A stretch of DNA of 38,512 nt from a virus: positions 1-38,512 of the IMG/VR virus record IMGVR_UViG_3300010885_044361, one strand, 5' to 3'. The notes beneath the pieces were generated by a model. That model made no database searches and was not told the DNA's origin. It was given only the letters and a program-made list of their open reading frames with translations. Below are positions 10,715 through 38,512 of the stretch, piece by piece. A program made the position numbers and the translations under genes. Within the stretch, counting starts at the first letter, position 1. Each line of letters begins with the position of its first letter.

Positions 10715-10739
10715 TCCTAATAGGATTAAATACTAGACT

Positions 10740-11127: not shown

Positions 11128-11135
11128 TTATTAAA

Positions 11136-11142: not shown

Positions 11143-11168
11143 CAAGATAAAAAGAAGGCAAGGGAACA

Positions 11169-14100: not shown

Positions 14101-14561
14101 TAGAACAACTGAGCTTAGATTATTATGAGCTACAAGATTATAAGATGGCAACAGATTGTTTAATATTAAATTCTGTAACATTTAAACCACTGTTTGGCGA
14201 CAAGGCCGATGTTGGATTACAAGGTAAAATTAAAGTAATTAAGCACCTTAATGTAACGGTGTCTAATGGTGAAATTAAAAGTAAAGTTGTAAATGCTCTT
14301 AATAAGTTCTTTACCATTGATAAATGGGACTTTGGTGACACATTTTATTTTTCAGAACTATCAGCATATCTACATAGCCAGTTAGGTGATATTATAAGTT
14401 CTGTGGTTATTGTTCCTTCAGACCCTAATAAAGTGTTTGGTGGACTATACGAAATTAGATCAGCACCAAATGAAATATTTGTTAACGCTGCAGGAATCAA
14501 TGACATTGATGTAGTTGACGCATTAACAGCAAGTACCTTAAGACAAGAAATTATAATTTAA
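11169..14561 (+). CDS. 6: Baseplate wedge protein gp6
   Basis: This 1130-aa protein is the gp6 wedge subunit, which forms the continuous ring that holds contractile baseplates together with gp7. The N terminus is diagnostic: SFVDYLKLYYPETFNDF, then LLDLMAFMGQSLAFRNDLN, then TAERRDSVIKLANLIGYSPK, as in all gpJ/gp6-type proteins. It is larger than T4 gp6 (660 aa); the extra length is mostly in the middle and C-terminal half and is beta-rich. Near residues 815-826 a DKDKDGVADNPD loop resembles calcium-binding type-3 repeats. The end contains helical and strand segments typical of the gp6 dimerisation end. AAGGG precedes the ATG; it is 11 bases before the giant gene. Confidence 0.92.
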   Translation: MAKTTRQTAIFGAEDWKRIYQTYKEADFQSYDFETLRKSFVDYLKLYYPETFNDFTESSEFVALLDLMAFMGQSLAFRNDLNTRENFLDTAERRDSVIKLANLIGYSPKRNLNARGFLKVLSVNTTENVLDFNGFSLASVTVLWNDVTNPDWVEQFSSIINATLIDSQRIGRSGNSQEILGVTNDEYQINVLPNSLPIASFTTEVNGTNMSFEITSSSSVGKSYIYEPAVKPNGEFNILYRNDKLGYGSESTGYFFQFKQGTTITQDFNIADKITNRKISVNVDGVNNDDISLFKLKTNGEIETEWKQIENIYATDSSVTELSAQRNVYSVNSRANDQIDLIFGDGVFSQIPLGNFRLYTRASNGLEYVINPSEIQSVQLPISYVSRHGRIETLTVTLGLQTPISNAKSRETINEIKERAPARFYTQNRMVNGEDYNNFPFTQYTSILKSKAVARASVGINRQLDLLDPTGKYSSTNSFCQDGMLYETLTTPTTTFTFIDTNDIATVINSKVQPIIKSRQMTHFYYSKFNRYSYTDVKWHQSTAIVNQTTGYFQNVDSLGVMPIGEQSSSNTKYADQSALLKFGAPTGFFFDANNRLVSGSPSKVNEKLYLWSTITELTLDGTNFGTGNLNDGTGPVTLNEFIPSEALLIKVIPKFILDLPSALVQDIIDQISVYRNFGLGYNNSNHTWYIISTDNLDENAEYSSSHAQSTDGLGNDASWLIQFTTDGAIYTITYRALNYYFASVLENRFIFDDSASVFDPKTGKTLSDSITVLKVNAKPDSTEALTNNILLDIVGQDVESDGFVDNFKVLVSFADKDKDGVADNPDIFLDIVDPTVNSTLKNVFFQKLLDFDNLERFVPLAANIINAQYATLNEIELIKTEYQTDQIFYAYDANLFYKLTITDNTFVLTNTTEYQRCVGRQELYFQYKHNSPNTRRVDPATTNIVDLFLVTNTYYNNYINYIKDSTNKVSKPQQPTLEQLSLDYYELQDYKMATDCLILNSVTFKPLFGDKADVGLQGKIKVIKHLNVTVSNGEIKSKVVNALNKFFTIDKWDFGDTFYFSELSAYLHSQLGDIISSVVIVPSDPNKVFGGLYEIRSAPNEIFVNAAGINDIDVVDALTASTLRQEIII

Positions 14562-14572
14562 CTGGAATTTTA

Positions 14573-20500: not shown

Positions 20501-23500
20501 ATTGATACAAATATTTTTCCTATCATTGAATATAGAAATATAGATCAAAGTTTGCCAAGTTCGGGATTTGTTAATGTTGATGATATTTCTATTCAAGTAT
20601 TTGATTTGAATGAGCTCACTGATATTATTAATAATCTAGATTCTATTGTTGATGGAACACCAATTTGGGTAGCTAAAGATAACGGATATGAATGGAATGT
20701 TTATAGAATTTCAGTATTAGACCCAACACCAATAACATTATTAGATAATTTAAATGGAACTGCAACATTAGTGTTTGATGGTCATCACAATTTATTTGCT
20801 AACGATATTATTATTATTAAATATTTTCATTCAATACTTGACGGCGCCTATATAGTTAATAGCATTGTTTCTTTAGATAAAATTACAATTAGTCTTTCAT
20901 TACCGGATAGAGTTACAGAAATTGTTGCATCGGGTGTGGCATTTAAATTAAATTCTGCAAGAGTGGAACAACCAAGTGCTATTGCTGATCTTCCTTTTCA
21001 ACTAGAAATCAAAGACGGTGAAAAGATTTGGGTAAACAATATATCTAACGGTAATTGGGGTGTTTTAGAAAAAAATAATGTGTTCGTAGATTCATATCCT
21101 ACAGTCATCGAAGACACTCCCCAACAAGACAGTAACTTTGGATCAAGCGTATCACAATCACCCGACGGAAAAATTGCATTAGTTGGCGCATCTGGTTATA
21201 ATTCGGGCGCAGGCGCAGTTTATGTATTTGGTCAATCCAGTAGTACTGGTGATCTTCAGCCAGGACCAATATTTACCTTAGGTGTTACAGCACAAACAGG
21301 CTATGGCCACATTGTTGAGTCCGGCGGGCTTGGTTGGAATGTAGTTGGTGCGCCACTATCTAAAAGTGAAGAAGGGTATGCAGTATTAATTAGAGAATTT
21401 TTAGAAACTGGTAATTTTGTTGAATGGCAACTACTTACTGTTCCTGTTGGTCGAGGTGACAGTACACAATCAGAGTTTGGTTATAGTGCAGCAATTAGCA
21501 GTGATGGTAGAATATTGTGGGTTGGCGCACCCGGAGTAGATAAAGTATTTGGATACCAGTTAGTTGAATTTGAATTACAAAAAATGCGTATTCTAGGTGA
21601 CGGACAAACAAAATCATTTACTATCAGTGATAACATTATGGTTTCGACTGCATATGAAATATCTGTTGTTGTAAACAATAATTTACGTACCCCAATAACA
21701 GATTATACCTTAGCCGCCGGAAAAGTTATATTTGACTCTGCACCAAGTCTTGGTTCAAGAATTGAAATAAACAGAAAACATTTTTATTCTGCCGATGGCG
21801 ATAGCAGCACAACTATATTTGTTCTTGATATGTTATACGGAGCAACTAATATTGATACACTATCAGTTAAAGTTGCTAATCAGTTACTTCGTCCTTATTA
21901 TGATTATACTTTTAATTCAGCCAATCGAAACTTAACTCTTAATAGTGCCCCCGCAATAGGCAGCTTATTAACAGTAGAAGCCCGTGACCACTTTAAATAT
22001 TTTACAACCATAACAAGTCCGATAGCGAACCCTCGACGTTTTGGATCAAGTATAGCCACCACCGGGGACGGTAGACAGGTTGTCATTGGTGCAATTGATG
22101 CAGAAGGAAATGATAGTACCGATACTGTGGGCCAAGCATTTATTTTTGATAGAGATGTTCAAAGATTTATAATTACAAATTTAAGCACCTTGAGTTATAC
22201 TACAACATCTGCCATTGTTGGCAGACCAGAGGTTTTAATTAATAATAAAAGACAAGTGAACGGTAATTATTATTTTAAAAACAAAAGTTATACTTCAGTA
22301 ACCAACACTATTACATTTAATAGTAATATAATTAACATGGGCGACTTTGTTGATATAGAAACTAATAATATGGCTTATGTAAAAACATTAAATCTACCTG
22401 GAGATATTCAAAGTGCTCAATTTGGATACGCAATTGCTATATGCGAAACTAACTGTTCTATATACGTTGGTGCTCCTAATGTTAGTTTACTTAATGCTGA
22501 TAGTTCAGGAAACGTATCTCGATTTATTAATCAAAGTAGATTATACGGAAGTATTCTTGGAACAGTTACTTCTCCAACAGTAACAATTGGTAATGTTATC
22601 AGAATTAATAATGTTTATATAACACTAACAGGAACAACATTAAATTCTGTTGTAGATGATATTAATGATGCTGGCATACCAAATGTTGTGGCGAGTAATA
22701 CAAATAATAAAATCTATATAAGTTTAATTAATCTAAAAGCAGCACCACTGACTAACAGATTATACATTCTTCCCGGAAGCGGAACTGCCATTGATGATCT
22801 TGGGCTAGACTTGTTCCCTTATATGCAAACGTTGGTTAATCCATTCCCAAAAGAATATGCACATTTTGGCTCTAGTATTGATGTTAGCAGTAATGCTCTT
22901 AGTATAGCCATTGGCGCCCCTAATGCCCCAACAAATTTAATAGTAACATTAGATGATAATGCAACGTTCCTAGATAGTAAAAGCACAGTTATTAAAGATA
23001 TTCAAACAGATAGTGGCGCAGTATACACATTTGATTATTTAGGTTCATCAGATGATACGTTTCTGAACCCTGGACGATTTGTTTTTGGTCAACAAGTAAC
23101 TGATATCTTTGTTCAACCTCAGTCTTTATATGGAACATCGGTTAATTACTCTAATGGTAAATTACTCATTGGTAGCCCAGCGTATCATAAACCTGACAGC
23201 GAATCACAAATTGGTCGTTTAGTACGATTCAATAATACAGAACAAGTTAGTAGTTGGACAGTGGCAAGGGAAGAAGTCGCTCAAGTTAATGTAGAATTAA
23301 TAGATAGTGTCTTCATTTACAATCATCCAACAAACAAAATTTTAACATATTTAGATTATATTGATCCACTTCAAGGAAAAATACTAGGACCAGCGCAACA
23401 AAATATTGATATCATATCACCAACTGATCCGGCCGCATACAATAACGGAACAAAAAATATCTATGATAGTACCTGGGGCAACGAACGGGTTGGTATAATT

Positions 23501-26500
23501 TGGTGGGATGTAACAAATAGTAAATTTATTGACTACCACCAATCTACAATTGATTATAGAGCGAAAAGATTAAGTCAATTGTTTAAAGGATCTAGTATCG
23601 ATGTTTACCAATGGATCCAAAGTGATGTTCATCCAGCAGAATATGCCGGTGATGGAACACCAAAGAGCACAACCTCTTATAGCATATTAAGTGATGTTAA
23701 TAATAATGGTGTGTTAGTAACCCAATATTATTTCTGGGTCAAAGGACTAACATCAGTTAATAAAAACCGTGGTAAAACACTAAGCACCACAACCATTCAA
23801 CAATATATTGAAAATCCCAAATCAAGTGGAATTCCATTTATTGCGTTCCTAGATAAAAATTCAGTTGCATTATATAATACAGAAGCATTTATATCTGATA
23901 CTAATAGTGTATTGCATATAGAATTTGATAAAATAGAAACAGAAAATAACATACATGCTGAATATGAGTTAATTCGTGAAAATGACCCTTCTCAATTTTT
24001 AAGTACACAAATATATAGAAAATTTCAAGACTCACTCTGTGGTAAAGATACTGCCGGTAATTTAGTACCTGATCCAAAATTGTCATTGACAAATATTTCA
24101 GGTGTTGGGTTTAGACCAAGACAAACAATGTTTATTGACAGGTATACTGCATTACGTAATTATATAACATCAATTAATCGAGTATTATCTAAACACCCTA
24201 TTGTAGAAATGAAATCTTTAACTTTATTAAATAGTAAAGAAGAAGAACCAACAAAGGAAGCGGCTGTCTGGGATTTCTTAGTCAATGATCTTGATGAGTT
24301 AAGTTATCAGAATTTAAACGCAGTTTCTACGGGATATCGCTATTTAATTAAATCCGATTTATCAAATGGCGGCAGATGGACAATATACACAGTCCAGGCA
24401 GATAAGTCATTATTGTTAACTAGAATACAAAATTTTAATACAACAGAATATTGGGAATATATTAATTGGTATAAAGATGATTATGATCTTTTAAATAAAC
24501 CAATAAAGGAAGTAAGCACATATTCTCTCTTACTGACATTAAGCAACAGTGTCAATGTCGATGATATTGTTAAAGTTACAGCAAATGCGCAAAATAAATT
24601 TGAACTTTATCGTTTAGATACTGACGGGTGGACCAGAGTTGGATTAGAAAACGGCACGATTAAAATAAGCGATGGCTTATTTGACTATTCCATTGACAAT
24701 CATGGATTTGATATTGAAGTATTTGACGCACAACACTGGGATGAAGAACCAACCATTGAAACTAGGCAGATTATCAAAGCTATTAATGAAGAATTACTCA
24801 TTGATGATCTAGCAAATTATAGAATAGATTCTATAATTTTAATGTTTAATTATATCACTAGTACACAAACTTCAATTGAGTGGCTTTCTAAAACATCATT
24901 AATTGATGTACATCATACCTTGCGAGAACTTAAACCATTTACTATTTTAAAACAAGATAACCAAACATTTATTGAAGACTACATTCAAGAAGTTAAACCA
25001 TACCATGCTCAGGTTAAAGAATTTAATTTAACCTATAAAGGCGATGATAATTATGTTGGTGATACCACTGACTTTGATTTGCCAGCATTTTATAACAACG
25101 AACTAGGTAAATTTATTAGTCCGCGTCATATGTTAAAAGCAGCAATTGTCAGAGGCGAAGGTGCATATTTACTTTCAGACCCAATTTGGGATAGTGGTTT
25201 ATACTCACAGTGGAAAAATAATTTTACATTAAGTATAGACTCAGTGAACATAACCGATGGCGGAAGTGGTTACACAACTAAACCAACTGTGGTTATTATA
25301 GGTGAATGTACTACTCCAGCTACAATGGTGTCTAAAATTAGCACCGCCGGAAAAGTTATTAGTGTAGAAGTAATATATTCTGGTGTGGGCTACACGTCTA
25401 CCCCATTAATTACATTCGTTGGCGGTAATGGTGCAGGAGCCACAGCCTACGCAATTTGCAGTCCGGGAACTGTGCGATCATACAAAACTACAATTAAATT
25501 TGATCGAACAGATCTCACTACCAGCGTTGTTGATTGGGAACCACTGACAGCATACGATCAAAATCAATTACTTAGATATAATAATAAAGTTTGGAAAGCA
25601 AGTTATGCAGACGGGTCAACATTAAGTAAAACCTCTTTTGATCCATTGGATTATACTGCAGCCTCAATTGATGAATTGTCAGGTGTTGATAGAACTATGG
25701 GCTTGTATATTCCCAGAGAAAGCTCACCAGGGATTGATTTAGCACTATTAGTATCAGGAACAGACTATCCCGGTGTTCAAGTTTTAGGTCCAAGGTTTAA
25801 TCAAAATACTGGCTTGGATGTGGGCAATTTTGATATTAATCCATATGATAACCTAGAGTTTGGCCCAGAAGGTAAACCAACTTATTCTGATTCAATACTT
25901 GATACAATTTATAGTAGACAGGATTTCCTAGAAGCATACCTTGGAGCAACGACAGACATTGATGTTGTTGGCGGTGCATACGTTGATAACTATAATAGTC
26001 ATGCGCCCGAAGAATTATTACCTGCAGCAATTTTTGATACGTTAAGTCTTAGAGTTAAAACTCGTCCGGGAGCCGACTATCTTAATGTAGGGTTTAGCGC
26101 AGACGAGAAAACACGATTCTTTGAATATGATGGAGTTACGACTACTTTTTACTTTGGCGACTTAGTTGTCGATCCGTTTGCTGTTCGCCTTTACAATATA
26201 ACACAAGGAACAACACTACGATTTGAATATGTAACTCCGGCCGCTGGTGTAATTGATTATACTATTAATTGGCTTAATAAAACAATCACCATACTTAGTG
26301 GAGCAACTGTTGGCGAAACTATTGGCATCACTAGTTTTGGTATAGGTGGTGGTAATCAATTAATATTAGAACATTATGCTGTTGGGGATTATTTAAATTC
26401 AGATGGCACTGTTACTATTATTGTTCCGGTGAGGCATACTGAAATTAAAGAGGCAATGATTAAATGTAATGGCTCAAGAATAACTAATTATATCTTTGAA

Positions 26501-27949
26501 GAGTATGAAACATACCATACTAAAATAATTTTTGGCGCTGTTGATACTGACAGTGACGGCATACAAAATCCAGATAAGGTTAAATATTTTGGAACACAAC
26601 CATTGGAAATTGGTGATTACTTACATGTTTGTATTATGGGCTTTGCCGTCGGTGAAACCTCATCCTTATATGTAACACACAATGAGGGAATTGTTCATAC
26701 ATCAAGTCATCCAAGTACACAATATTTTTATGTTACTGATGCAACAATAACTTCTTACTCGCTAAGCCAAGATATACAAGGAACAAATCCAGACACGGCG
26801 TTAGTAGAAATTAATGGTCAGCGAGCAAGACCGCCCGAAGGATTCGAATGGTATGGTGATGCTACAACTGTAGATTTTACTCTTTCTCTTGAGACACTTA
26901 CTCCAGTAAGTTCAATTGCAGACAATGATATCCGAGTCTATGTTGATGATATACAAAAACGCCTATATGAAGACTTTATTGTATCTTTAGATGACGGTAG
27001 TAGTGACCGAGTAGTTACTTTTACTACTGCTCCTGCCGATGAGGCTCATATTAAGATATTTGTAAGAACATCTTCAGACTATAGTATTTCAAGACTTGCT
27101 AATGTTTCTAATTTAAACATGATTACATTTAAAACACCACTAACTGTTGGTGACCATATTATGATTACGACATATAACAATACCACCGAATTAGATCAAA
27201 TAATTAAAGTATACCAAGGTCCAACTCAATCAGGTTATACTACTATGCAAGCGTATGATGCAGTAGAATATGATAGTGATAATTTTGATAAACAAGAAGG
27301 TGTTACTATTGATCAAAGTGTTTATGATTTAGGTCGAGAAATAACTGATGCGTCAAGACTTACTGTACATGTCAACGGAATTAAGAAATATTCTGGGGTC
27401 CATTGGAAAATGCAAGCTGACGACTCGAGTAAACTTGAATTTTACTCAATCGACGTACAAATTGCAGATGTAGTTACAGTTACATTAAAATCAGAAATTG
27501 TTGTGCCAAAAAAACTAGAGTTCCGTTTATTTAAAGATATGCGAGGAAATACTGCAATTTACCGAGGTGACGAAGGCAATGCAACAACTTTAGCTCAACA
27601 AGTAGATACCACTGATGATGTAATTTATGTTTACGACGTTACAAAATTAGCTACTCCTAATCTTGAATCAAACGTTTACGGAGTAGTCATAATTGATGGT
27701 GAACGAATCACTTATAAATATATAAATGCAAGTAATAATTCCATTAGTGGACTTCGACGTGGGACAGCAGGAACAGCAATAAGCTCACATGCAGCCAACG
27801 CAATATGCCATAATATAAGTATAGATATGTATTTAAATTGGTCATACAATAAAATTTGGTATGCTCAAGGTGCTAGTACCGCATCTGACGGCAGGCCGTT
27901 ACAAAAAACTGTAACAGTTCCGGCTAAATTCTTATTAGGACTCGATTAA
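14573..27949 (+). CDS. Giant multidomain baseplate/tail protein (gp7 position)
   Basis: At 4458 aa this gene fills a third of the window. The first residues (LDLLPEIFRTKPNEKFLNATL) resemble the start of tail protein I/gp7-type wedge proteins, and the gene follows gp6 as gp7 does. Further parts seen: a cupredoxin-like segment at about 172-250 (VIRGGNYKFIVNQTGNPFYI); at about 2187-2886 seven FG-GAP-like repeats such as FGSSVSQSPDG...VGAS that suggest a beta-propeller; at least nine roughly 70-80-residue beta modules with a VxVNN...DYT...I core; a GGSGYT/SGVGYTSTP pair at about 3562-3628; a DTDSDGIQNPD loop near 3990; and near the C terminus GLRRGTAGTAISSHAAN. It has no in-frame TAG. A GGA lies six bases before the ATG. 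It probably forms a wedge base plus arm that reaches outward; T4 gp7 is only 1032 aa. Exact role is inference. Confidence 0.7.
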   Translation: MAIQRRTLDLLPEIFRTKPNEKFLNATLDQLVQPSQLQKIDGYIGRKVGLGVSAADSYILEPDVERATYQLEPGICYKTADGQFTEDLITYPGLIDALTVRSANTTRHDRLFTSEYYTWDPFVDFDKLINFSQYYWLPSGPPSVDVSSTEISLTDEYTITRNTNSYTFSDIAGDNPVLTVIRGGNYKFIVNQTGNPFYIQTAPGAAGYVTGQPNQSARDVLGVSNNGEDNGIVEFLVPTAGAQNFYLNMPMVSKVDLVTNLRFDQINNRLVSEFNDEHNGIDSITDLKNRTLIFTNSNTGPKEDSGWQIQGRFDEYNFDANDTVFDPAEEITLKSDRYSVWRIEYVYDAAGRNPFMVLRNIKSINNLTKVHVQYGTTHNNMYFYKTAEGFFEQQPLISAINDVLYYQDANNENNFGIIRIVDEVNQLELNINDIIGRKTYTSPTGVVFTNGLKVQFRGRTLPNSYQDNSYYVEGVGSSIKLVDIRDLKTPETYTVSETVPFDLFGYDESPWDASLNAPIDQDYFTINRASPDKNAWSRSNRWFHENIITASAEYNNSSPVLDQTARATRPILEFKAGLCLFNHGTEGVAAVDIIDFRSTDAMSLVRGSKTYLTDGYLLTNGSRVIFANDTDPAVRNKIYKVELVDPIGITVDPSQLSDPIINLTLDTDGNINEDQVVFCLSGTSLQGKAYRFSGDEWILAQQKTKVNQPPLFNIFDIDGKELGDQNTYPSSNFNGTHLFSYSTGSGPVDSVLGIKLSYLNINNVGDIVFKNNLYNDSFVYTENNISSTTNIATGFIRQFEDRTNFSLLTGWQTAITPLDQPQIFTFVTDEIVVDNISFNCDIAAVDQDNAVTVYINNEYILPKDYSYITTLDTTVITPTKTIDPNSIIHIHIVSDQVSKIAYYEIPHNLADNSVNMEFKTITLGTIRNHFVSLAQRVTDLSGDILGRNNLRDLGNIIPYGSQIIEHSSPLQFAATFVKDGNINFFNSLNYSAREYEKFKNKLIDALTHNDYQGTAADRLDSALLDINSGRDPKSSFYWTDTLPSGKVYVETNFTITPISDNQFALTRIYDFTKANYTAILVYLNDELLIKDLDYTVAVDTARLTIEIDLAVDDIITIREYESTSGSFIPSTPTKLGLYDAYVPEIFTDDSYSTPQTIIQGHDGSKTIALGDNRDDVLLEFEKRIFNNLKLVGNTVPLHYYDVIPGKFRTTDYSESEITELMYNSFLTWTSWNKLDYKTQEYDQANSKTWNYSSATDRVDNSLLLGGWRGNLNKFYDTDLPHLRPWEMLGFSIKPVWWINAYGAAPYTKDNLVLWDDLATGKVADPAGSYYLPQFARPGLLDIIPTGDEGQLLDIFDILVANYDRLSLKKSWVVGDQGPVETAWRRSSTWPFAVQQLLAQTKPAQYFALNADRDLYRYNDDLNQYLYDNRYRLNSTNIVVYGKGTIKHSYINWCVDFSHLQGVDATQKITDIFNNTKVQLVYRTGGFTDKKYLKIFTEKSSPNSLNTSLLLPDESYEVLLYKNEIFDRVSYSSVIIQKVDNGYAVYGNSKLNLYFNIFESVINGNYRSTTVGDTTIKIPNDFSDNVVLVPYGYVFTSKSAVADFLISYGRWLESKGFIFDDKQNDYYLNWNQIVQEFLYWSQQGWDIGSIINLNPAAYQLKISKRRAVVAPIMGQTADDFVLNQNLTVINNNKLVFDRIGNEFVIKSTDENSIAFIDLKFTAYEHVLVFNNTSIFNDLLYDPTTGGRQLRLKIVGFNTGKWDGTINAPGFIFNQNNVADWSPNKNYSKGEIVKYKNIYYSAAYRIQPADAFNIVDWVATEYSSIKQGLLPNLSLKADQVRDYYHKNVANLEQDADLLGFGLIGFKPRSYMQGLNLDDISQTNIYSGFVKNKGTRQALNLFKSARLEKELTDYQIYENWAIQTGQFGATANRSYIELQLDSSIVTGNPGTVKVVSDVSDVTANQNIPLTKIYKSSYNVIDTNIFPIIEYRNIDQSLPSSGFVNVDDISIQVFDLNELTDIINNLDSIVDGTPIWVAKDNGYEWNVYRISVLDPTPITLLDNLNGTATLVFDGHHNLFANDIIIIKYFHSILDGAYIVNSIVSLDKITISLSLPDRVTEIVASGVAFKLNSARVEQPSAIADLPFQLEIKDGEKIWVNNISNGNWGVLEKNNVFVDSYPTVIEDTPQQDSNFGSSVSQSPDGKIALVGASGYNSGAGAVYVFGQSSSTGDLQPGPIFTLGVTAQTGYGHIVESGGLGWNVVGAPLSKSEEGYAVLIREFLETGNFVEWQLLTVPVGRGDSTQSEFGYSAAISSDGRILWVGAPGVDKVFGYQLVEFELQKMRILGDGQTKSFTISDNIMVSTAYEISVVVNNNLRTPITDYTLAAGKVIFDSAPSLGSRIEINRKHFYSADGDSSTTIFVLDMLYGATNIDTLSVKVANQLLRPYYDYTFNSANRNLTLNSAPAIGSLLTVEARDHFKYFTTITSPIANPRRFGSSIATTGDGRQVVIGAIDAEGNDSTDTVGQAFIFDRDVQRFIITNLSTLSYTTTSAIVGRPEVLINNKRQVNGNYYFKNKSYTSVTNTITFNSNIINMGDFVDIETNNMAYVKTLNLPGDIQSAQFGYAIAICETNCSIYVGAPNVSLLNADSSGNVSRFINQSRLYGSILGTVTSPTVTIGNVIRINNVYITLTGTTLNSVVDDINDAGIPNVVASNTNNKIYISLINLKAAPLTNRLYILPGSGTAIDDLGLDLFPYMQTLVNPFPKEYAHFGSSIDVSSNALSIAIGAPNAPTNLIVTLDDNATFLDSKSTVIKDIQTDSGAVYTFDYLGSSDDTFLNPGRFVFGQQVTDIFVQPQSLYGTSVNYSNGKLLIGSPAYHKPDSESQIGRLVRFNNTEQVSSWTVAREEVAQVNVELIDSVFIYNHPTNKILTYLDYIDPLQGKILGPAQQNIDIISPTDPAAYNNGTKNIYDSTWGNERVGIIWWDVTNSKFIDYHQSTIDYRAKRLSQLFKGSSIDVYQWIQSDVHPAEYAGDGTPKSTTSYSILSDVNNNGVLVTQYYFWVKGLTSVNKNRGKTLSTTTIQQYIENPKSSGIPFIAFLDKNSVALYNTEAFISDTNSVLHIEFDKIETENNIHAEYELIRENDPSQFLSTQIYRKFQDSLCGKDTAGNLVPDPKLSLTNISGVGFRPRQTMFIDRYTALRNYITSINRVLSKHPIVEMKSLTLLNSKEEEPTKEAAVWDFLVNDLDELSYQNLNAVSTGYRYLIKSDLSNGGRWTIYTVQADKSLLLTRIQNFNTTEYWEYINWYKDDYDLLNKPIKEVSTYSLLLTLSNSVNVDDIVKVTANAQNKFELYRLDTDGWTRVGLENGTIKISDGLFDYSIDNHGFDIEVFDAQHWDEEPTIETRQIIKAINEELLIDDLANYRIDSIILMFNYITSTQTSIEWLSKTSLIDVHHTLRELKPFTILKQDNQTFIEDYIQEVKPYHAQVKEFNLTYKGDDNYVGDTTDFDLPAFYNNELGKFISPRHMLKAAIVRGEGAYLLSDPIWDSGLYSQWKNNFTLSIDSVNITDGGSGYTTKPTVVIIGECTTPATMVSKISTAGKVISVEVIYSGVGYTSTPLITFVGGNGAGATAYAICSPGTVRSYKTTIKFDRTDLTTSVVDWEPLTAYDQNQLLRYNNKVWKASYADGSTLSKTSFDPLDYTAASIDELSGVDRTMGLYIPRESSPGIDLALLVSGTDYPGVQVLGPRFNQNTGLDVGNFDINPYDNLEFGPEGKPTYSDSILDTIYSRQDFLEAYLGATTDIDVVGGAYVDNYNSHAPEELLPAAIFDTLSLRVKTRPGADYLNVGFSADEKTRFFEYDGVTTTFYFGDLVVDPFAVRLYNITQGTTLRFEYVTPAAGVIDYTINWLNKTITILSGATVGETIGITSFGIGGGNQLILEHYAVGDYLNSDGTVTIIVPVRHTEIKEAMIKCNGSRITNYIFEEYETYHTKIIFGAVDTDSDGIQNPDKVKYFGTQPLEIGDYLHVCIMGFAVGETSSLYVTHNEGIVHTSSHPSTQYFYVTDATITSYSLSQDIQGTNPDTALVEINGQRARPPEGFEWYGDATTVDFTLSLETLTPVSSIADNDIRVYVDDIQKRLYEDFIVSLDDGSSDRVVTFTTAPADEAHIKIFVRTSSDYSISRLANVSNLNMITFKTPLTVGDHIMITTYNNTTELDQIIKVYQGPTQSGYTTMQAYDAVEYDSDNFDKQEGVTIDQSVYDLGREITDASRLTVHVNGIKKYSGVHWKMQADDSSKLEFYSIDVQIADVVTVTLKSEIVVPKKLEFRLFKDMRGNTAIYRGDEGNATTLAQQVDTTDDVIYVYDVTKLATPNLESNVYGVVIIDGERITYKYINASNNSISGLRRGTAGTAISSHAANAICHNISIDMYLNWSYNKIWYAQGASTASDGRPLQKTVTVPAKFLLGLD

Positions 27950-31057: not shown

Positions 31058-31076
31058 CTAAAATTTGGTTAAATTA

Positions 31077-31108
31077 AAAATAAAAGGGCAAATAAGCCCT
31101 TTTATTTT
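31077..31108 (+). terminator. Rho-independent terminator after structural block
   Basis: AAAATAAAAGGGC (31077-31089) pairs perfectly over 13 bases with GCCCTTTTATTTT (31096-31108), with a loop AAATAA. The stem contains a GGGC/GCCC core and ends in a T-rich run. It lies 20 bases after the last fibre gene. It could act in both directions because of the flanking A run. Confidence 0.88.
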
Positions 31109-31117
31109 GACTAAAAT

Positions 31118-31134
31118 TATGTTATAATAAATTA
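31118..31134 (+). promoter_or_regulatory. TATAAT box directly before 31134 start, possibly leaderless
   Basis: TATAAT (31123-31128) ends five bases before the ATG. The stretch TGTTATAATAA is the same as before gp47 and at the same distance. A TTGACT at 31107-31112 is only 10 bases upstream, too close for a standard -35. No ribosome site is present, so a leaderless transcript is possible. Confidence 0.4.
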
Positions 31135-31433
31135 TGGATAATATCTCAAGCACAATTAAAGCACGGTTTGATCATCAAGCAAGCCGACAAATTCTTAAAG
31201 AAAAATACCAAGCTAAAATGATTTTTACTGAGCAAGGTGGTATGTGGCGCGCCGGGCCCGAATTAATCATATTACTCAATTCTATCAATCAGGATGAGTT
31301 AATTCTATTGGATCTATATGATTCGCCAATATTAGTAAATAAACAAAAATTACTAACTATAGCTATAGAACGATGGCAGGAACAACTAAATGCCTGGAAA
31401 GTTGAACTAGCTGAAACTAATAAACAACGATGA
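31134..31433 (+). CDS. Small unknown protein, first gene of the modification operon
   Basis: This 99-aa protein is not recognised. It has a charged helical N terminus (SSTIKARFDHQASRQILKEK), a central strand region with AGPELIILLNSINQDELILLD, and a charged helical C terminus. It has no signal peptide or membrane segment. It starts just after the terminator and TATAAT box and overlaps the next gene by four bases (ATGA), so it belongs to the same operon as the glycosyltransferases. The ATG has no ribosome site; an internal start (Met29) is possible. Confidence 0.6.
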   Translation: MDNISSTIKARFDHQASRQILKEKYQAKMIFTEQGGMWRAGPELIILLNSINQDELILLDLYDSPILVNKQKLLTIAIERWQEQLNAWKVELAETNKQR

Positions 31434-32188
31434 CACGCGGTGTATTACTTTATGCATTTAATAATGAAACTATAAACTATAAGAAAATAGCTGAATGGTC
31501 ATCTAAAAGAATTGAGAAATATCTTGGATTGCCAACTACAATAATTTCAGATTTAACGTTAGCTAAAAGTGGAGGCAGACGAATAATGCACCCAACCGTT
31601 GATAAACAATACTCAACATGGTATAATGCAGCTCGTCATACTGCCTGGGAACTAAGTCCTTATGATCAAACAATTATTTTAGATGTTGATTATATTGTTT
31701 CTAGCGATCAACTATTAAAATTATTTGATAGTAGTCAATACTTTGCCTGCCATCAGACAGTAGTCGATGCAACTGGTCGTAACCAGTTTTCTGCACACGA
31801 AAAATTTGGAGAACTACAGTTTCCACAAACGTGGGCAACTGTTTGTTATTTTACCCGTGATCCAAGAACTAAGAAAATATTTGACATTATTAAAATGATA
31901 CTAGAAAACTATAGTCATTATGCTAATTTATATAAATTTGCAAAACAGCCGTTTAGGAATGATTATGCTTTTAGTATTGCATTATCAATATTAAGTGGGC
32001 ACCGAATAACAAATGACTATAATATACCTTGGCCTTTATTAAATGTGTCAACTGATGTAACTTTTAATGTCAATGAAGATAGAATTAATTTAAATTATCT
32101 TAAACAACAAAGATCACAATATCTTTCTATTTTAGGGCAGGACTTACATGTGTTAAATAAACTTTGTCTAGGAGAACTTGTTGCGTAA
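31430..32188 (+). CDS. Putative glycosyltransferase (GT-A type), first of three
   Basis: This 252-aa protein resembles GT-A nucleotide-sugar transferases found in marine phages. A DxD-type motif lies in TIILDVDYIV at about residues 85-87, preceded by a Rossmann-like N terminus (GVLLYAFNNETINYKKIAEW) and followed by WATVCYFTRDPRTKKIFDII and a late FRNDYAFSIAL. DxD in this type binds the metal and sugar nucleotide. The sugar and acceptor are unknown. It overlaps the genes on both sides (four bases before, several after), so it is translated with them. Confidence 0.6.
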   Translation: MTRGVLLYAFNNETINYKKIAEWSSKRIEKYLGLPTTIISDLTLAKSGGRRIMHPTVDKQYSTWYNAARHTAWELSPYDQTIILDVDYIVSSDQLLKLFDSSQYFACHQTVVDATGRNQFSAHEKFGELQFPQTWATVCYFTRDPRTKKIFDIIKMILENYSHYANLYKFAKQPFRNDYAFSIALSILSGHRITNDYNIPWPLLNVSTDVTFNVNEDRINLNYLKQQRSQYLSILGQDLHVLNKLCLGELVA

Positions 32189-32990
32189 ATTTCTTGCAGA
32201 ACGTGGCTATTTAATATTAGCACAAGACCATAATGACCAAACATATATAACTTGTGCTCGTGCTCTGGCTAAAAGTATACGTTGGTTCATGCCAACAGCT
32301 AAAATTTGTCTTGTGGGAACATCTGATGATCCTGTGTTTGATTATTGCTTGCCTCTGCCCCACGGCGATCAGGGTTTTCTAGCAAATGATTGGCAATTAT
32401 TTGAGATTAGCCCATTTAGAGAAACTATTAAATTAGAAGCTGATATGATACTTAATGGTAGTATAGATCATTGGTGGACAATATTAGAAAAAAGAGATTT
32501 AGTTGTTGCCCGGGGCACACAAGACTTTTATGGTTATCAAAGCTCAGTTAAATTTTATCGATCGCACTTTGAATCAAATCAATTACCTGATGTATATAAT
32601 GCTATAACCTATTGGCGTTGGTCGGAATCAGCTGTAACTTTTTTTAAAACTGTTAGATCATTGTTTGAGAATTGGAATCAGGTAGTATTAGCATTAAAAG
32701 GGTGGAATCAAAAAGAACCAGACACAGATACAGTATATGCATTAGCAATGATATTATTAGGCAAAGAAAAATACACCCTTCCAATAAATTTTCCACAATT
32801 TGTACATATGAAAGGTAAAATTAATTATTGTCATGGCCAGGACTGGACTAAAGAACTTGTTTGGGAGTTAAATGAACAGGGATTAAGAATTAATACAATA
32901 CAACAAACAATACCAACACATTATTTTATTAAACAATTTGCCAATCAACTTGAGGACCACTATGACACACTTCTGGGAAGCCGCTCTTAA
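32178..32990 (+). CDS. Putative glycosyltransferase-like protein, second of three
   Basis: This protein (up to 270 aa) has the same layout as its neighbour: YLILAQDHNDQTYITCARALA at the N terminus, where sugar transferases of this type have their first Rossmann strand and helix, and KLEADMILNGSIDHWW near residues 85-100 where an acidic ExD stands in place of DxD. LPHGDQGF and HMKGKINYCHG are further conserved-looking segments. The start is TTG: either TTG 32178 or the next TTG 32181, with GGAG at 32171-32174 better spaced for the second. It overlaps the first transferase. Substrate unknown. Confidence 0.5.
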   Translation: MLRKFLAERGYLILAQDHNDQTYITCARALAKSIRWFMPTAKICLVGTSDDPVFDYCLPLPHGDQGFLANDWQLFEISPFRETIKLEADMILNGSIDHWWTILEKRDLVVARGTQDFYGYQSSVKFYRSHFESNQLPDVYNAITYWRWSESAVTFFKTVRSLFENWNQVVLALKGWNQKEPDTDTVYALAMILLGKEKYTLPINFPQFVHMKGKINYCHGQDWTKELVWELNEQGLRINTIQQTIPTHYFIKQFANQLEDHYDTLLGSRS

Positions 32991-33291
32991 TCGCCCCAAG
33001 CAAAAAGTATTAAAAGAATTAGAACTCAGACTGTATTACGATGAGGATGGCCACGTAATTTCATATACCACTGATGAAAATTTAGGTAATTACATAATAG
33101 TAGATCAACAAACATATAGAGAAAGTCGGTATGATCTAATAGTAGTCAATGGAAAAGTTGTCAACCCTAGTAAACATAGTCAAGTAAGAAAATTAGTACC
33201 TGATTTAGAGGGTGATAGTACATTAATTGATGATATAACTATCATTGGACCAGGCCAACAATGGAAATTAAAATATTATGACGCAAATTGA
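32962..33291 (+). CDS. Small conserved-looking protein between glycosyltransferases
   Basis: I use ATG 32962 because GAGGA lies five bases upstream; a longer TTG-started reading to 32938 is less likely. The 109-aa protein has a beta-rich middle (LRLYYDEDGHVISYTTDENL, GNYIIVDQQTYRESRYDLIVV) that looks like a small folded domain. I cannot name a family. It overlaps the gene before it by 29 bases and the gene after it by 14, which argues that it works with the transferases or the radical SAM enzymes. Confidence 0.55.
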   Translation: MTHFWEAALNRPKQKVLKELELRLYYDEDGHVISYTTDENLGNYIIVDQQTYRESRYDLIVVNGKVVNPSKHSQVRKLVPDLEGDSTLIDDITIIGPGQQWKLKYYDAN

Positions 33292-34186
33292 TATAGCAGA
33301 CCTAGATTGTGTTTATCTAAGTTACGATGAGCCACAAAAAGAAGAATTCTGGATTAAAATACAAAATATGGTCCCTTGGGCCAAACGTGTAGATGGCGTT
33401 AAAGGGTCAGACTCAGCACACAAAGCCGCAGCGGCAGCAAGTGACACTGAACGTTTTATATTAATAGATGGTGACAACTTGCCAGATGCAAAATTTTTTA
33501 ATTTAACCTTAGACTTACCTGACGATACCTGGAATTCAGCAGTATTTCGTTGGCGTGCCCGTAATCATATTAATGCGCTTATGTATGGTAATGGTGGCAT
33601 AAGTTGCTGGACACGAGAGTTTGTAAATAATATGCGCACACATGAAAATTCTAACGGGGATGAAAATACGCAAGTAGAATTTTGTTTTGATCCACTTTAT
33701 TGGCCCATGCATGATTGTTATAGCGTAACATATCCAAATGCTACACCTTTTCAGGCCTGGCGTGCAGGATTTAGGGAAGGGGTTAAAATGTGCTTAGATC
33801 GTGGCAGTCGCCCTAGTCTTAGTGAGTTTCAAGATCGGATACATCGCAGTAATCTTGATAATTTATCAATTTGGCATAATGTTGGTGCAGATGTTGAAAA
33901 TGGCCATTGGGCCATGGCAGGCGCACGCCTTGGTACATATATGACTATGTTAACTGAATGGGATTATAGAGAAGTTCAATGGTTTGATTTTTTAGATAAA
34001 AAATGGGAAACAGTACAAAAGCAAGATGTGCAGTCGATGCTTTCTCAATACGGAGATAGTTTGTCTAGATTAGGTATGGAAATAGTTAATATGACTGCAA
34101 CTCAGAGTAAATTTTTCAAACATCATTATAGATCAAATTGGCAAAATCTTGGTCCAATGGTGCGTGAGGTTGATGTAAACAAATGA
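33278..34186 (+). CDS. Putative glycosyltransferase-like protein, third of three
   Basis: This 302-aa protein has an N-terminal VYLSYDEPQKEEFWIKI and a DxD motif IDGDNLPD at residues 63-70, which fits a GT-A sugar-nucleotide binding site. WRARNHINALMYGNGG and WTREFVNNMRTHEN follow, and an acidic/aromatic C-terminal half ends in SKFFKHHYRSNW. It resembles phage-encoded sugar transferases. It overlaps the radical SAM gene that follows by four bases (ATGA), which ties sugar transfer and radical chemistry in one transcript. Confidence 0.58.
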   Translation: MTQIDIADLDCVYLSYDEPQKEEFWIKIQNMVPWAKRVDGVKGSDSAHKAAAAASDTERFILIDGDNLPDAKFFNLTLDLPDDTWNSAVFRWRARNHINALMYGNGGISCWTREFVNNMRTHENSNGDENTQVEFCFDPLYWPMHDCYSVTYPNATPFQAWRAGFREGVKMCLDRGSRPSLSEFQDRIHRSNLDNLSIWHNVGADVENGHWAMAGARLGTYMTMLTEWDYREVQWFDFLDKKWETVQKQDVQSMLSQYGDSLSRLGMEIVNMTATQSKFFKHHYRSNWQNLGPMVREVDVNK

Positions 34187-35604
34187 ATAATAAAGGTGAT
34201 GAAGTAAACTCAGATTTTAAATCTAAATTTCTATCTGACGCTGAACAAATGAAAGACCGTTTAGCTCAAGTTAGTCCAAGTCTTTGTCTTGCTAAATGGA
34301 AACAAGTTAGTTTACATTTAACCACTGGATGGAACAATAGTTGTTATCACCCACCTCTTCATAGAATTCCAATAGAAGAAATAAAAATAAATCCAAGTGC
34401 ATTACATAATACCTCGTACAAAAAAGAACAAAGAAAATTAATGTTAGAAGGTAAACGACCAAGCGAATGTAGCTACTGCTGGACTATAGAAGATGCAGGC
34501 AATTTAAGTGATCGTCATTACCGATCTGGTGAGCCCTGGGCAGCCGAAGCATTTTCCGCAGTAACTAACCAACCGTGGGATCAAGATATTATTCCAAGTT
34601 ATGTAGAAGTAAATTTTAATCACAATTGCAATCTTAAGTGTAGTTATTGTAGTCCACAATATTCAACTGCATGGGAAGATGAAGCAAATAAACATGGCTC
34701 GTGGCCAACAGCAGTTCCACACAACGATCCTATTTACTTTAAGGGTGACCGCAAACCTATCCCATTTAAAGACTACAATCCTTATGTAGAAGCATTTTGG
34801 GAGTGGTGGCCTACTTTGTATCCTGAATTAAAACATTTTCGTATGACCGGCGGTGAACCATTGATGGATAAAAATACGTATCGTGTATTTGATTATGTAT
34901 TAGCAAACCCTAAACCTGATCTACACTTAAATGTCACTAGTAATTTTTCAGTTGATGAAAAACTATGGCAAAAATATAAAGCGTATGTTAAACAAATCTG
35001 TGAAGGTGACAATGTTGAACACTTTATGCAATACGTAAGTATAGATACGTTTGGTGATCAGGCAGAGTATATACGTCACGGGCTTGACTATGCGTTACTT
35101 TGGGATCGTGTTAATCAATTTTTAAATGAAATTCCAAACAAATCATCAATTACATTTATTATTACTATGACTAATTTGAATGTTGTGGGTCTTTCTCATT
35201 TACTAGCTGGCATACATGGGCTAAGACAAATATATTCCAACACATATCAACGAGTATGGTTTGATACACCGTTGCTCAGAACACCAAAATGGATGAGCAT
35301 GCAACTATTACCTGAACCATATATAGATAAACTTGAACACTTGTGGTGTTGGATGTTAAAATGGATTGAGACCGAAGAAACAAGATTTAAAGGATTTAAA
35401 GATTATGAACTCCAGCGGCTTCAGAGAGATATTGATTGGATGCAAGAAGGAAAAAAATTAGATCCTGAATATGTGCGTCAACAGCAAGCCGATTTTTATA
35501 GATTTTTTAATGAACACGATCGTCGTCGTGGCACTAATTTTTTAAAAACTTTTCCTGAGATGAAAGAATGGTGGGAGATCTGTCGCAATCATGCCCGAAA
35601 TTAA
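34183..35604 (+). CDS. Radical SAM protein, type A (first of four)
   Basis: This 473-aa enzyme has the radical SAM cysteines C149, C153 and C156 in FNHNCNLKCSYCSPQYS, which would bind the 4Fe-4S cluster that cleaves SAM, and a TGGEP motif at residues 222-226 for the SAM amino group. Before the core, residues about 40-100 hold more cysteines (KW...CYHPPLH, CSYCWTIED at 96-99), like the auxiliary-cluster cysteines of SPASM/twitch proteins but N-terminal. The last gene in the window is a close paralogue. The reaction cannot be told from sequence. It overlaps the preceding transferase by four bases and the next radical SAM gene by 14. Confidence 0.8.
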   Translation: MNNKGDEVNSDFKSKFLSDAEQMKDRLAQVSPSLCLAKWKQVSLHLTTGWNNSCYHPPLHRIPIEEIKINPSALHNTSYKKEQRKLMLEGKRPSECSYCWTIEDAGNLSDRHYRSGEPWAAEAFSAVTNQPWDQDIIPSYVEVNFNHNCNLKCSYCSPQYSTAWEDEANKHGSWPTAVPHNDPIYFKGDRKPIPFKDYNPYVEAFWEWWPTLYPELKHFRMTGGEPLMDKNTYRVFDYVLANPKPDLHLNVTSNFSVDEKLWQKYKAYVKQICEGDNVEHFMQYVSIDTFGDQAEYIRHGLDYALLWDRVNQFLNEIPNKSSITFIITMTNLNVVGLSHLLAGIHGLRQIYSNTYQRVWFDTPLLRTPKWMSMQLLPEPYIDKLEHLWCWMLKWIETEETRFKGFKDYELQRLQRDIDWMQEGKKLDPEYVRQQQADFYRFFNEHDRRRGTNFLKTFPEMKEWWEICRNHARN

Positions 35605-36784
35605 TCCTAATACATGCCCTGCTTTTTTCTTAGATGCCACCATTGATTCTAATGGATCATATAGCCCATGCACAGCATTAGGTGGCGGAGCATTTAAATT
35701 TGATAAAGATGATATTAAAACTATCTGGATAAACTCGACATTAGAAAATGTTCGACAACGTAGTAAAGATGGCGAACAATTACCTATGTGTAAACGCTGT
35801 TGGAGCGAAGAAGCTCTGGGCTTAATTAGTGAAAGACAATACTTAAAACAAGATGTTCCTGCTAATTTAGATTATACAAGTCCCAACTATTATCTTAGCG
35901 GCCCGCGACATTTAAACATTAAAGTCAGTAATATTTGCAATTTAAGATGCCGCACCTGTCAGAGTATTGATAGTTATTTGTATCATATTGAAGGTGCACA
36001 TTACGAAAAAAAGAATAATATTTCAAATACTATCTATACAAAAGAAAAATTTAAAAAAAACTTTACTGATGATCAGTTAGAAGAATTATATCAATTTTCA
36101 AATAATATAGAAAGAATTGAACTATATGGAGGTGAGCCTTTTTTAGATGATCAGATTCCTAAGTTTTTATTAAAATTAGTCAATGAAGGCCGTGCTAAAG
36201 ATATCGACTTTTCCGTTAGTACAAACATGACACATGAATTAACTGACCAATGGCGCAAAATTTTATCTAGCTTTAAGAACGTCATTGTTAATATGAGTAT
36301 AGATGGAATTGGTCCTAGATTTACCTATATACGGCACCCGGGTAATTGGGACGAGGCAGAAAAAAATATTAAAGAATTAATAGCATTTAGTCAACAATAT
36401 GCAACCATTAATTTAAAACCTGTTATTACCGTTAGTGCATTGAATGTTTGGTATATTAATGAAGTATTTGAATATTTTGAACAATATAATATAATTCCTT
36501 TTATTATAATGGTCCAATGGCCATCATATTATTGTGTTAATGTATTCCCATCTACTATTAAACTAGAGATCGAAGCTAGACTTAGAAAATTAAATCGACC
36601 TGCCATACTGCCAATTATTGGATTATTAAATAGCCAACCTAAAATATTTAAAATGTATGAACTAAAAACACCCTGGGAAGAATTTAAGTTTTGGACAAAA
36701 GAAAAAGACTTGTATCGTAAAGAAGATTTTATTTCAACTTTTAATGAGCTTGGTCAACTACTACTTAAATACAACGAATGGTAA
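35591..36784 (+). CDS. Radical SAM protein, type B (second of four)
   Basis: This 397-aa enzyme has CNLRCRTC at residues 116-123 and YGGEPF at 179-184, the radical SAM cluster and SAM-binding motifs. The N-terminal 75 residues look like a SPASM/twitch domain placed in front of the core: CPAFF at 9, a turn with DSNGSYSPC (C27), a segment IKTIWINSTLENVRQRSKDG and CKRCW at 67-70. This order is reversed from the common radical SAM-SPASM layout. The core continues with NMSIDGIGPRFTYIRHPGNW. Substrate unknown. It overlaps the gene before by 14 bases and the one after by seven. Confidence 0.82.
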   Translation: MPEINPNTCPAFFLDATIDSNGSYSPCTALGGGAFKFDKDDIKTIWINSTLENVRQRSKDGEQLPMCKRCWSEEALGLISERQYLKQDVPANLDYTSPNYYLSGPRHLNIKVSNICNLRCRTCQSIDSYLYHIEGAHYEKKNNISNTIYTKEKFKKNFTDDQLEELYQFSNNIERIELYGGEPFLDDQIPKFLLKLVNEGRAKDIDFSVSTNMTHELTDQWRKILSSFKNVIVNMSIDGIGPRFTYIRHPGNWDEAEKNIKELIAFSQQYATINLKPVITVSALNVWYINEVFEYFEQYNIIPFIIMVQWPSYYCVNVFPSTIKLEIEARLRKLNRPAILPIIGLLNSQPKIFKMYELKTPWEEFKFWTKEKDLYRKEDFISTFNELGQLLLKYNEW

Positions 36785-37872
36785 AAACGAATGCAAATAA
36801 CTGGACCTGCGGAGCGATCGACCACGGAGTCACCTTTTATCAAAATGGAACTATAACGCCCTGTTGTTTCATTGATTGGAGTTATAAAAAAGATATTAAA
36901 GACATAGGTAATGATCCGTTTGCTGATCTTAGGACTGATTCTGCACCGAGTGTATGTAATAAATGTATAGATGCAGAAGCCCGCGGCGCTATTAGTTATA
37001 GACAGAACTTTAATTCTAAAAAAACTAGTGCACCAGGATATCAATTTATTGATATAAGGAATAGCAATTTATGTAATATAAAATGTAGGACTTGTTGCCC
37101 AGAAAATAGCAGTCAATGGGCCTTAGAATTAGGACATACGATCCCAATCAAACAACAAGATATTTTATCATACAAAGATTATATATTAACACCTACAGTA
37201 CACAGCATATATTATACTGGTGGTGAACCTTTTATTAATGTTGAGCATTGGGAGATATTAGAAAAGTTAATTAGTTTAGGATATAGTAAAAATATTGAAT
37301 TACAATACAATTCAAATTTGACTACATTAAAATTTAAAGATAAGAATATATTAGAGTTGTGGAAGAATTTTAAACAAGTAACAGTAATGGTAAGTATTGA
37401 TGCCGTAGGAGAAAAGTTTAATTTAATTAGATCGGGTGCAGATTGGCAAGATGTTATTGATAATCTTTTAAAATTAAAAACATATCAGCAGTCAACTAAT
37501 AATTTATCATTGACTATTGCTACAACTGTAAGTATTTTAAATATCTGGTTCATTGATGAATTGTTAGAATATTTTAAAGATTTTAAAGTAAATTTAACAG
37601 ACTTGTATTTTCCAGATTATTTAAGTTTATCAGCAATACCAGATTCGTTAAAAGATCAAGCACTAGCATGTGTTGATCAAATTGAAAAATTATATTTAGA
37701 TAAAAATAAAATTAAATTTATGAGATCACAAATTAATAATAATGTAAATAAACAGCTCTTTAAGGATACGATATCACATACATTATTACTAGATAATATT
37801 AGAAATGAGGCATTATTTGACTTATTACCATTCAAAAAAGAAGCAATAGCACAGGTATTTAAAAATCTCTAA
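36778..37872 (+). CDS. Radical SAM protein, type B (third of four)
   Basis: This 364-aa protein is a paralogue of the previous one. The N-terminal SPASM-like part has C11, a turn with QNGTITPCC (C29, C30) and CNKC at 60-63; the radical SAM cysteines are C99, C103 and C106 in CNIKCRTC, followed by an extra C107; TGGEPF is at 147-152. The core has VMVSIDAVGEKFNLIRSGADW, as in type B. DNA is very AT-rich here (about 24% GC by hand count over nine lines). It overlaps the previous gene by seven bases; the next begins one base after its TAA. Confidence 0.82.
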   Translation: MVKTNANNWTCGAIDHGVTFYQNGTITPCCFIDWSYKKDIKDIGNDPFADLRTDSAPSVCNKCIDAEARGAISYRQNFNSKKTSAPGYQFIDIRNSNLCNIKCRTCCPENSSQWALELGHTIPIKQQDILSYKDYILTPTVHSIYYTGGEPFINVEHWEILEKLISLGYSKNIELQYNSNLTTLKFKDKNILELWKNFKQVTVMVSIDAVGEKFNLIRSGADWQDVIDNLLKLKTYQQSTNNLSLTIATTVSILNIWFIDELLEYFKDFKVNLTDLYFPDYLSLSAIPDSLKDQALACVDQIEKLYLDKNKIKFMRSQINNNVNKQLFKDTISHTLLLDNIRNEALFDLLPFKKEAIAQVFKNL

Positions 37873-37873
37873 T

Positions 37874-38512
37874 ATGGCAAAAATTACTAACGAAACAGAT
37901 TTGCAATACAAACGCAGAGTAATTGACATCAAGTCAGAGAGTTTCTGTGCGGCCAAATGGTATAATGCTACTATCTGGTTAGGTAGTGGACAGACGACTA
38001 GCTGTCACCATCCCTTGCCACACGCCATTGATGTAGAAGCAATTAAAACCAATCCTAAAGCAATACATAACACTCAGCAAAAGAAAAGTGAACGTGCTAT
38101 GATGCAAAAGGGGGAAAGACCAGCTGGATGTGAATACTGCTGGAAGATTGAAGATATGGGTAAAGATGCGATCAGTGATCGTGTTTATAAAACAGTTATA
38201 TATGAGGATAAAGATTTAGATGAAGCTTTCAATACTAGACCAGAACAAGACGTTAACTTACAAACCTTGGAAATTGCTTTCGATCGCACTTGTCAGTTCG
38301 CTTGCAGCTATTGCAATCCTGCTTTCAGCACTACTTGGGTTCGTGACATTCATCGCAATGGACCATATACCAAATTGGTTTCCGACGGTCGCAACCATTT
38401 TTCTCACACTCATGATAGTAGTCAACTTTATACTATCAATGACGTTAATCCATACGTTGAAGCCTTCTTCAAGTGGTGGGAATCAGACCTACACAAGACG
38501 CTCAAAGAACTA
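37874..38512 (+). CDS. Radical SAM protein, type A, partial (fourth of four)
   Basis: The frame is open to the right edge (213 codons), so the C-terminal part is missing. It is a paralogue of the gene at 34183: KWYNATIW, CHHPLPH, an ERPAGCEYCWKIED segment (C86, C89) and the radical SAM cysteines C140, C144 and C147 in CQFACSYC, 51 residues after C89 compared with 50 in the first paralogue. The GGEP loop lies beyond the window edge. Its DNA is clearly richer in GC (about 41% by hand count over 37921-38512) and uses CGC for arginine repeatedly, unlike the gene before it. It starts with an ATG one base after the previous stop, so it is in the same operon. Confidence 0.82.
   Translation, partial: MAKITNETDLQYKRRVIDIKSESFCAAKWYNATIWLGSGQTTSCHHPLPHAIDVEAIKTNPKAIHNTQQKKSERAMMQKGERPAGCEYCWKIEDMGKDAISDRVYKTVIYEDKDLDEAFNTRPEQDVNLQTLEIAFDRTCQFACSYCNPAFSTTWVRDIHRNGPYTKLVSDGRNHFSHTHDSSQLYTINDVNPYVEAFFKWWESDLHKTLKEL

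Follow-up and report, generated by a model that had tools for sequence, protein, structure and literature searches.

Genes for radical S-adenosylmethionine (SAM) enzymes have been reported before in T4-like marine phages. The available text of a 2017 study describes 12 of them, together with iron-sulphur (Fe-S)-related genes, in one T4-like environmental genome (PMC5332604), and that of a 2020 study describes radical SAM cassettes in the host-recognition islands of pelagimyophages and gives GT8 genes as the commonest glycosyltransferase genes of these phages (PMC7029224). At the protein level, the enzyme BtrN oxidises an aminocyclitol (PMC9012708), and its auxiliary cluster is bound by four cysteines (PMC9012708; PMC6231123). 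Here we analysed positions 1 to 38,512 of the IMG/VR virus record IMGVR_UViG_3300010885_044361 (38,512 nucleotides; hereafter the window), which comes from an uncultured large aquatic phage and holds four radical SAM genes, A to D, in its final 4.3 kb, all on the plus strand. An earlier note on this DNA had taken the four as an A-B-B-A array for a modification not described in T4-like phages; the radical SAM genes reported in the two studies above run counter to the last point. Since the record itself stops at 38512, the right part of the array is taken from relatives only.

Genes A to D almost certainly belong to the radical SAM family NF033640 of NCBIfam (N_Twi_rSAM, twitch domain-containing radical SAM protein), with its N-terminal twitch architecture. 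Three of them, A (34183..35604, 473 amino acids), B (35591..36784, 397 amino acids) and C (36778..37872, 364 amino acids), matched this profile over its full length at 319, 263 and 246 bits, above the curated cut-off of 170 bits. Gene D (37874..38512, 213 amino acids) is cut by the window end and scored 136 bits on profile positions 1-172 of 398. The family profile was also matched at a loose threshold by 14 control genomes, none of which exceeded the cut-off. Pfam placed SPASM (PF13186) on residues 9-71 of B and Radical_SAM on residues 110-264; the cut-off of PF04055 was exceeded by B and C, and A fell slightly short of it (26.5 vs 29.5). The CxxxCxxC motif and partial TIM-barrel core of the radical SAM superfamily are present, and GGEP is near-invariant. 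These matches bear out the earlier identification of all four genes, from 34183 to the window end, as radical SAM genes.

In each protein four further cysteines precede the core, as the earlier note had seen. They lie at 35/54/96/99 in A (core 149/153/156), 9/27/67/70 in B (core 116/120/123), 11/29/60/63 in C (core 99/103/106) and 25/44/86/89 in D (core 140/144/147). Because NF033640 is named for an N-terminal twitch domain, this order is a known family trait; it is "reversed" only by comparison with enzymes that carry a C-terminal SPASM or twitch domain, and in that sense alone the earlier description holds, its novelty not being supported by the scores of A, B and C against the family profile. 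The literature searched yielded no report of an activity for the family. Its members are frequent in aquatic phages and numerous in Bacteriovoracia, and recognizing the family would improve annotation, as relatives in phage records are now labelled heme-biosynthesis, MoaA/NifB/PqqE or QueE enzymes.

The cysteine pattern is not a product of chance, because it is conserved across phage and bacterial homologues alike. Conservation was the check set beforehand, and all seven columns are invariant in 252/252 non-redundant homologues from related phages, with the same columns being cysteine in 65-68 of 68 bacterial homologues. Every one of the 252 phage proteins has C-x(16-21)-C-x(27-124)-C-x(2-4)-C ahead of CxxxCxxC, the usual N-terminal spacing being C-x17/18-C-x41-C-x2-C. 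None of them has a conserved cysteine beyond the radical SAM core, so the seven-cysteine C-terminal motif that marks radical SAM-SPASM enzymes is absent, the four extra conserved cysteines all being N-terminal. A profile of 17 diverse members matched its N-terminal part to the twitch domain at the C terminus of BtrN, the best match of this kind among characterised proteins, and all four N-terminal cysteines aligned onto the four BtrN twitch cysteines. This comparison was made by sequence-profile alignment and not by full-model structure search; BtrN was absent among the matches listed for the latter, which mostly span the core. The AlphaFold2 model of A is confident (predicted local distance difference test, pLDDT, 93.6), and its core matched SkfB (best, Z 13.9), BlsE (13.0), SuiB (12.9) and DesII (12.5), and also MoaA. 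The N-terminal cysteines belong to a conserved domain of the auxiliary-cluster type, for which a cluster is predicted from sequence, and each enzyme carries the cysteines expected of a single SAM-cleaving 4Fe-4S site and of a putative BtrN-like auxiliary site with four cysteines.

With regard to gene order, at least 105 IMG/VR stretches encode relatives of A; genes were called and grouped in 80 of these and in three further loci that were found through B. The relatives share a fixed order that runs f8 (a giant virion protein), f6, f5, f4 (fibre-like), f7, f1, f1, a short f2-preceding gene labelled f2 (short) and f2, and then the enzymes. The radical SAM scaffold follows as subfamilies S0, S1, S4 or S5, S3 and S2, with f9 and often f10 (a carbamoyltransferase) 3' of it. 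Three or more scaffold subfamilies are present in 53 loci, of which 51 are colinear and 39 hold the full set of five. The genes between scaffold members are cargo, either extra radical SAM genes (S6, S7, S10, S13) or other enzymes. In the window the order is S0 (A), S7 (B), S13 (C) and S1 (D), followed by the end of the record. As this falls on the ordered scaffold, the apparent A-B-B-A arrangement consists of two scaffold members flanking two cargo members, and a symmetric duplication was rejected by gene order in relatives and by the tree. In two loci (L007 and L018) the orthologue of gene C (S13) stands upstream of S0 instead. The proposed pairing of A and D survives in part: they are more similar to each other than any other two of the four (37% over 204 amino acids; clade S0+S1+S9 with a Shimodaira-Hasegawa-like approximate likelihood ratio test support of 75) but fall in two separate conserved subfamilies, the S1 clade having a support of 100. 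The pairing of B and C has to be given up, given 27% between them and a last common ancestor that also includes S2, S3, S4, S5, S11 and S12, so that they are not sisters. The earlier note advised a look for more copies to the right; the window end cuts the array, and most relatives with sufficient flank have 5-9 members per locus, the maximum in one phage record being 12, and the multi-step or multi-target modification that had been proposed fits an ordered array of divergent paralogues.

The enzymes belong to a longer, tightly packed gene unit that begins at 31134. Its boundary with the fibre genes is marked at 31064..31133 (plus strand) by a terminator-like hairpin, AAAAGGGC-AAATAA-GCCCTTTT, which is followed by an extended -10-like element, TGTTATAAT, immediately 5' of 31134. 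The hairpin had an RNA fold z of -4.5 and was not picked up by a simple terminator scan. From 31134 to the window end neighbouring genes overlap by 4-29 nucleotides or abut; A overlaps B, B overlaps C and D abuts C, and the median overlap at radical SAM junctions in relatives is 9 nucleotides. A sigma70-like promoter matching at least 10/12 occurs at the f4/f7 junction in 49% of 47 relatives, vs 3.1% of shuffles, and at 0-6%, near background, at other junctions. A T4-type late motif (TATAAATA) was found at this junction in 1/47 loci, vs 9/38 upstream of the fibre gene f5. This enrichment of the promoter, and the rarity of the late motif at the same place, suggest that host sigma70 may drive transcription of the unit separately from that of the fibre genes.

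The first gene of the unit, f7 (31134..31433), encodes a 99-amino-acid protein that is conserved over its entire length, and hence is not precursor-like, and that had no Pfam or PHROG match. It is followed by two copies of f1 (31430..32188 and 32178..32990), which form one sequence family of GT8-like putative glycosyltransferases; the first matches PHROG 1903, which is annotated as unknown function, weakly and the second matches it at E 1.1e-5. The GT8 label was given by eye from a DxD-like motif and by analogy with the pelagimyophage genes in the available text of PMC7029224. A small conserved protein of 109 amino acids (32962..33291; 117 from a TTG at 32938) lies between f1 and f2, without a family match, and a short gene of its family occupies the same position in many relatives. 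The f2 protein (33278..34186) has a GT-A fold in its AlphaFold2 model (pLDDT 88.9) and is probably a glycosyltransferase. It matched PDB structures of glycosyltransferases and of nucleotidyltransferases, sugar nucleotidyltransferases among them; the first Foldseek match is a glycosyltransferase of PBCV-1 that glycosylates the viral capsid (E 1.1e-4), the best by Z is human B4GALNT1 (Z 9.6 over 142 residues), and D64, D66 and N67 are invariant. All of these genes are on the plus strand, and the position of f2 near the enzymes is conserved in phages and also in bacteria.

The cargo of related phages includes NAD-epimerase, UDPG_MGDP_dh (UDP-glucose/GDP-mannose dehydrogenase), carbamoyltransferase and PNP_UDP_1 nucleosidase genes, as well as GT7, cytidylyltransferase, SAM synthetase, methyltransferase and B12-type radical SAM genes. 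An A-type Fe-S carrier is present in at least 9/21 related records and an IscU-type scaffold in at least 5/21, both counts being lower bounds because the records may be fragments. The two genes are adjacent in three related phage records (G109:C1:242459-243137, G113:C1:15486-16180 and G120:C1:23504-24228).

Counterparts also occur in bacteria. A genome scan found pairs and triplets of N_Twi_rSAM genes in Oligoflexia and Bacteriovoracaceae, and 49/97 sampled Bacteriovoracia genomes have members above the cut-off, with up to 12 copies each. The bacterial loci that we fetched contain 14 S0/S1-like genes. One locus (L159; G057:C41:64000-83000, positions 4151-16147) has eight N_Twi_rSAM genes in 12 kb, four of them S0/S1-like; it adjoins genes resembling obgE and ribosomal-protein genes, not sugar genes. 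In L134, an S0-like gene stands amid two Glycos_transf_1 genes, a DegT aminotransferase, a carbamoyltransferase homologue, PqqD and an ABC-2 exporter pair, and homologues of f2 lie within a few genes of N_Twi_rSAM in several bacterial loci. We note that PqqD-like and Peptidase_S74 (endosialidase chaperone) type genes recur near S0-like enzymes (L134, 6353-6643 on the minus strand and 13971-14417; L165, 9651-10514). A chromosome of the Bacteriovoracia class (L170, G044:C21:120000-136000, positions 10159-15800; and L180, positions 1-5013) carries the phage-type block f36-f4-f7-f1-f1-x-f2 followed by two N_Twi_rSAM genes. The contig bearing this block has housekeeping genes on its left flank, and no f5, f6, f8 or other phage structural genes were found near the block, which indicates that the unit can move en bloc.

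In our view there is about an even chance that A to D form the left end of a phage operon for the synthesis and chemical editing of a glycan. A glycan is favoured as substrate because sugar enzymes surround these genes in phages and in bacteria, GT2, DegT and GT1 being among the commonest Pfam families of 99 bacterial neighbours. BtrN, with its aminocyclitol substrate, and the sugar enzymes BlsE and DesII, which are among the fold matches, also favour it. The class of chemistry, i.e., SAM cleavage with an auxiliary cluster and a two-electron oxidation or related reaction, is predicted from the architecture. Under this reading, the f1 and f2 proteins would transfer sugars, and each radical SAM enzyme would use a 5'-deoxyadenosyl radical to abstract hydrogen from a sugar carbon. 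The auxiliary cluster would take up (or give back) an electron, leading to oxidised, dehydrated or epimerised sugars, and the divergent paralogues may work on different positions or residues. The epimerase, UDP-sugar dehydrogenase, carbamoyltransferase and cytidylyltransferase of relatives may supply or cap the sugars, and some related phages bring a SAM synthetase, a nucleosidase and proteins for Fe-S assembly themselves. The target could be a host envelope glycan or an adhesin of the virion, f4 being one candidate; the former is slightly favoured because of the sigma70-like promoter in relatives and the bacterial counterparts in polysaccharide-export loci. More tentatively, and we consider this rather unlikely, at least five N-terminal-twitch enzymes, ordered and co-transcribed, may act successively on one glycan as an assembly line, shared with Bdellovibrionota and served by phage-supplied SAM, Fe-S clusters and by-product removal, to yield hypermodified sugars on the virion or host surface. 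If glycan editing is true, phages would carry their own radical chemistry for surface sugars, with a bearing on receptor masking, superinfection exclusion and virion protection. Concrete substrates to test are suggested by the fixed order of the genes, by f2 as partner and by the sugar enzymes nearby.

Several observations weigh against a glycan. The families f1 and f3 have no Pfam match and owe their glycosyltransferase labels to inspection by eye; the window's own sigma70-like match is 9.5, weaker than the 10/12 required in relatives; and the Pfam families of 99 bacterial neighbours, led by GT2, radical SAM, DegT, GT1 and ABC transporter with PqqD twice, were counted without a matched control set. 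Twitch and SPASM enzymes frequently act on peptides, and the peptide enzymes SkfB and SuiB match the core of A equally well. A PqqD-like gene adjoins S0-like enzymes in two bacterial loci, and the unit sits beside fibre genes and has accompanied f4 and f7, with f1, f1, f2 and two enzymes, into one bacterial chromosome, so that f4 itself could be the target. These last points would favour enzymes that modify a phage protein or peptide (the fibre f4, f7 or the small protein at 32962-33291, which is a candidate partner or substrate should the glycan reading be wrong), for instance through cross-links or epimerised residues such as twitch/SPASM peptide maturases introduce. Such a role seems doubtful to us, considering that Pfam gave no PqqD or RiPP recognition element (RRE; RiPP, ribosomally synthesized and post-translationally modified peptide) match in A to D, that f7 lacks a leader/core pattern, and that many of the neighbours are sugar enzymes. 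The search for a small precursor peptide that the earlier note had advised returned none conserved in the arrays, at most 4/65 loci sharing one; a RiPP-like precursor inside the array was rejected on these grounds, together with the overlapping genes and the f7 alignment, with f7 and the small protein at 32962 still candidate substrates.

Alternatively, f1 and f2 may glycosylate a fibre or capsid protein whose glycan the radical SAM enzymes then edit. This is a sub-case of the glycan reading, with the same chemistry and a specific target, and its probability is contained in that reading rather than additional to it. The capsid-glycosylating PBCV-1 enzyme matched by f2, and the fibre-like f4 that is conserved directly upstream and moves with the unit, are consistent with virion decoration; the sigma70-like promoter at the f4/f7 junction in about half of relatives, the near absence of TATAAATA there as compared with f5, and the chromosomal setting of bacterial S0-like genes, one of them in a polysaccharide-export locus, argue for another target, and we regard decoration of the virion as improbable. 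Viperin-like antiviral or counter-defence enzymes acting on nucleotides are far less probable again. The cores are weakly similar to prokaryotic viperins (for B, 37.7 bits in NCBIfam and E 1.5e-10 to pVip of PADLOC), and mouse viperin is the first Foldseek match for A, but 37.7 bits is the highest score and far under the NCBIfam cut-off of 180, C and D had no PADLOC match, and the N-terminal twitch domain, the array and the neighbours point elsewhere. A defence role was rejected on that score.

As for the phage itself, its gp6-like baseplate wedge protein (11169-14561) is 31-33% to those of the jumbo phages Atu_ph07, Phosso and SCTP-2, and by this protein it is nearer to jumbo phages than to cultured T4-like marine phages. 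Neither f2 nor f4 had a match among the isolates of the phage collection, and together with the gp6-like protein this led us to reject a standard cultured T4-like or SAR11 phage as the source. Contigs of relatives reach 328 kb. Elsewhere in the window, 14573-27949 encodes a 4458-amino-acid virion protein (PHROG 10938) with weak CBM_5_12 and head-closure-like matches at about residues 1779 and 3549, and an SbcC-like nuclease subunit on the minus strand (527-2296) is apparently split into open reading frames 527-1885 and 1922-2296, which match different portions of PHROG 77.

As regards known systems, we came across no description of the ordered scaffold, its separate unit, the GT-A partner or the arrays of Bacteriovoracia in the literature searched, most subscription literature being outside the search. 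The proteins themselves do not differ from NF033640, sharing its N-terminal cysteine domain followed by a radical SAM core; the ordered array belongs to the locus and not to the family. BtrN (2-deoxy-scyllo-inosamine dehydrogenase, PDB 4m7t) likewise has a twitch domain in which four cysteines serve one auxiliary cluster, but its twitch follows the core whereas that of A to D precedes it (a permuted domain order), and the similarity is low. The radical SAM protein of KVP40-type Vibrio phages resembles ours in fold and by a weak sequence match (22-26% identity), mostly with one matching place per record. Bacteriovoracia loci such as L134 and L164 share S0-like enzymes, f2 or carbamoyltransferase homologues and, within the class, tandem copies; they differ in being chromosomal and in having DegT, an ABC exporter and sometimes PqqD, and the five-member scaffold order was not seen in them. 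With the radical SAM-rich T4-like marine viruses (PMC5332604) and the host-recognition clusters of pelagimyophages (PMC7029224), the present phages have in common several radical SAM genes per genome, Fe-S assembly genes and glycosyltransferases beside tail-fibre genes. The available text of these two studies gives counts or cassettes, without subfamilies, order, promoter or domain analysis.

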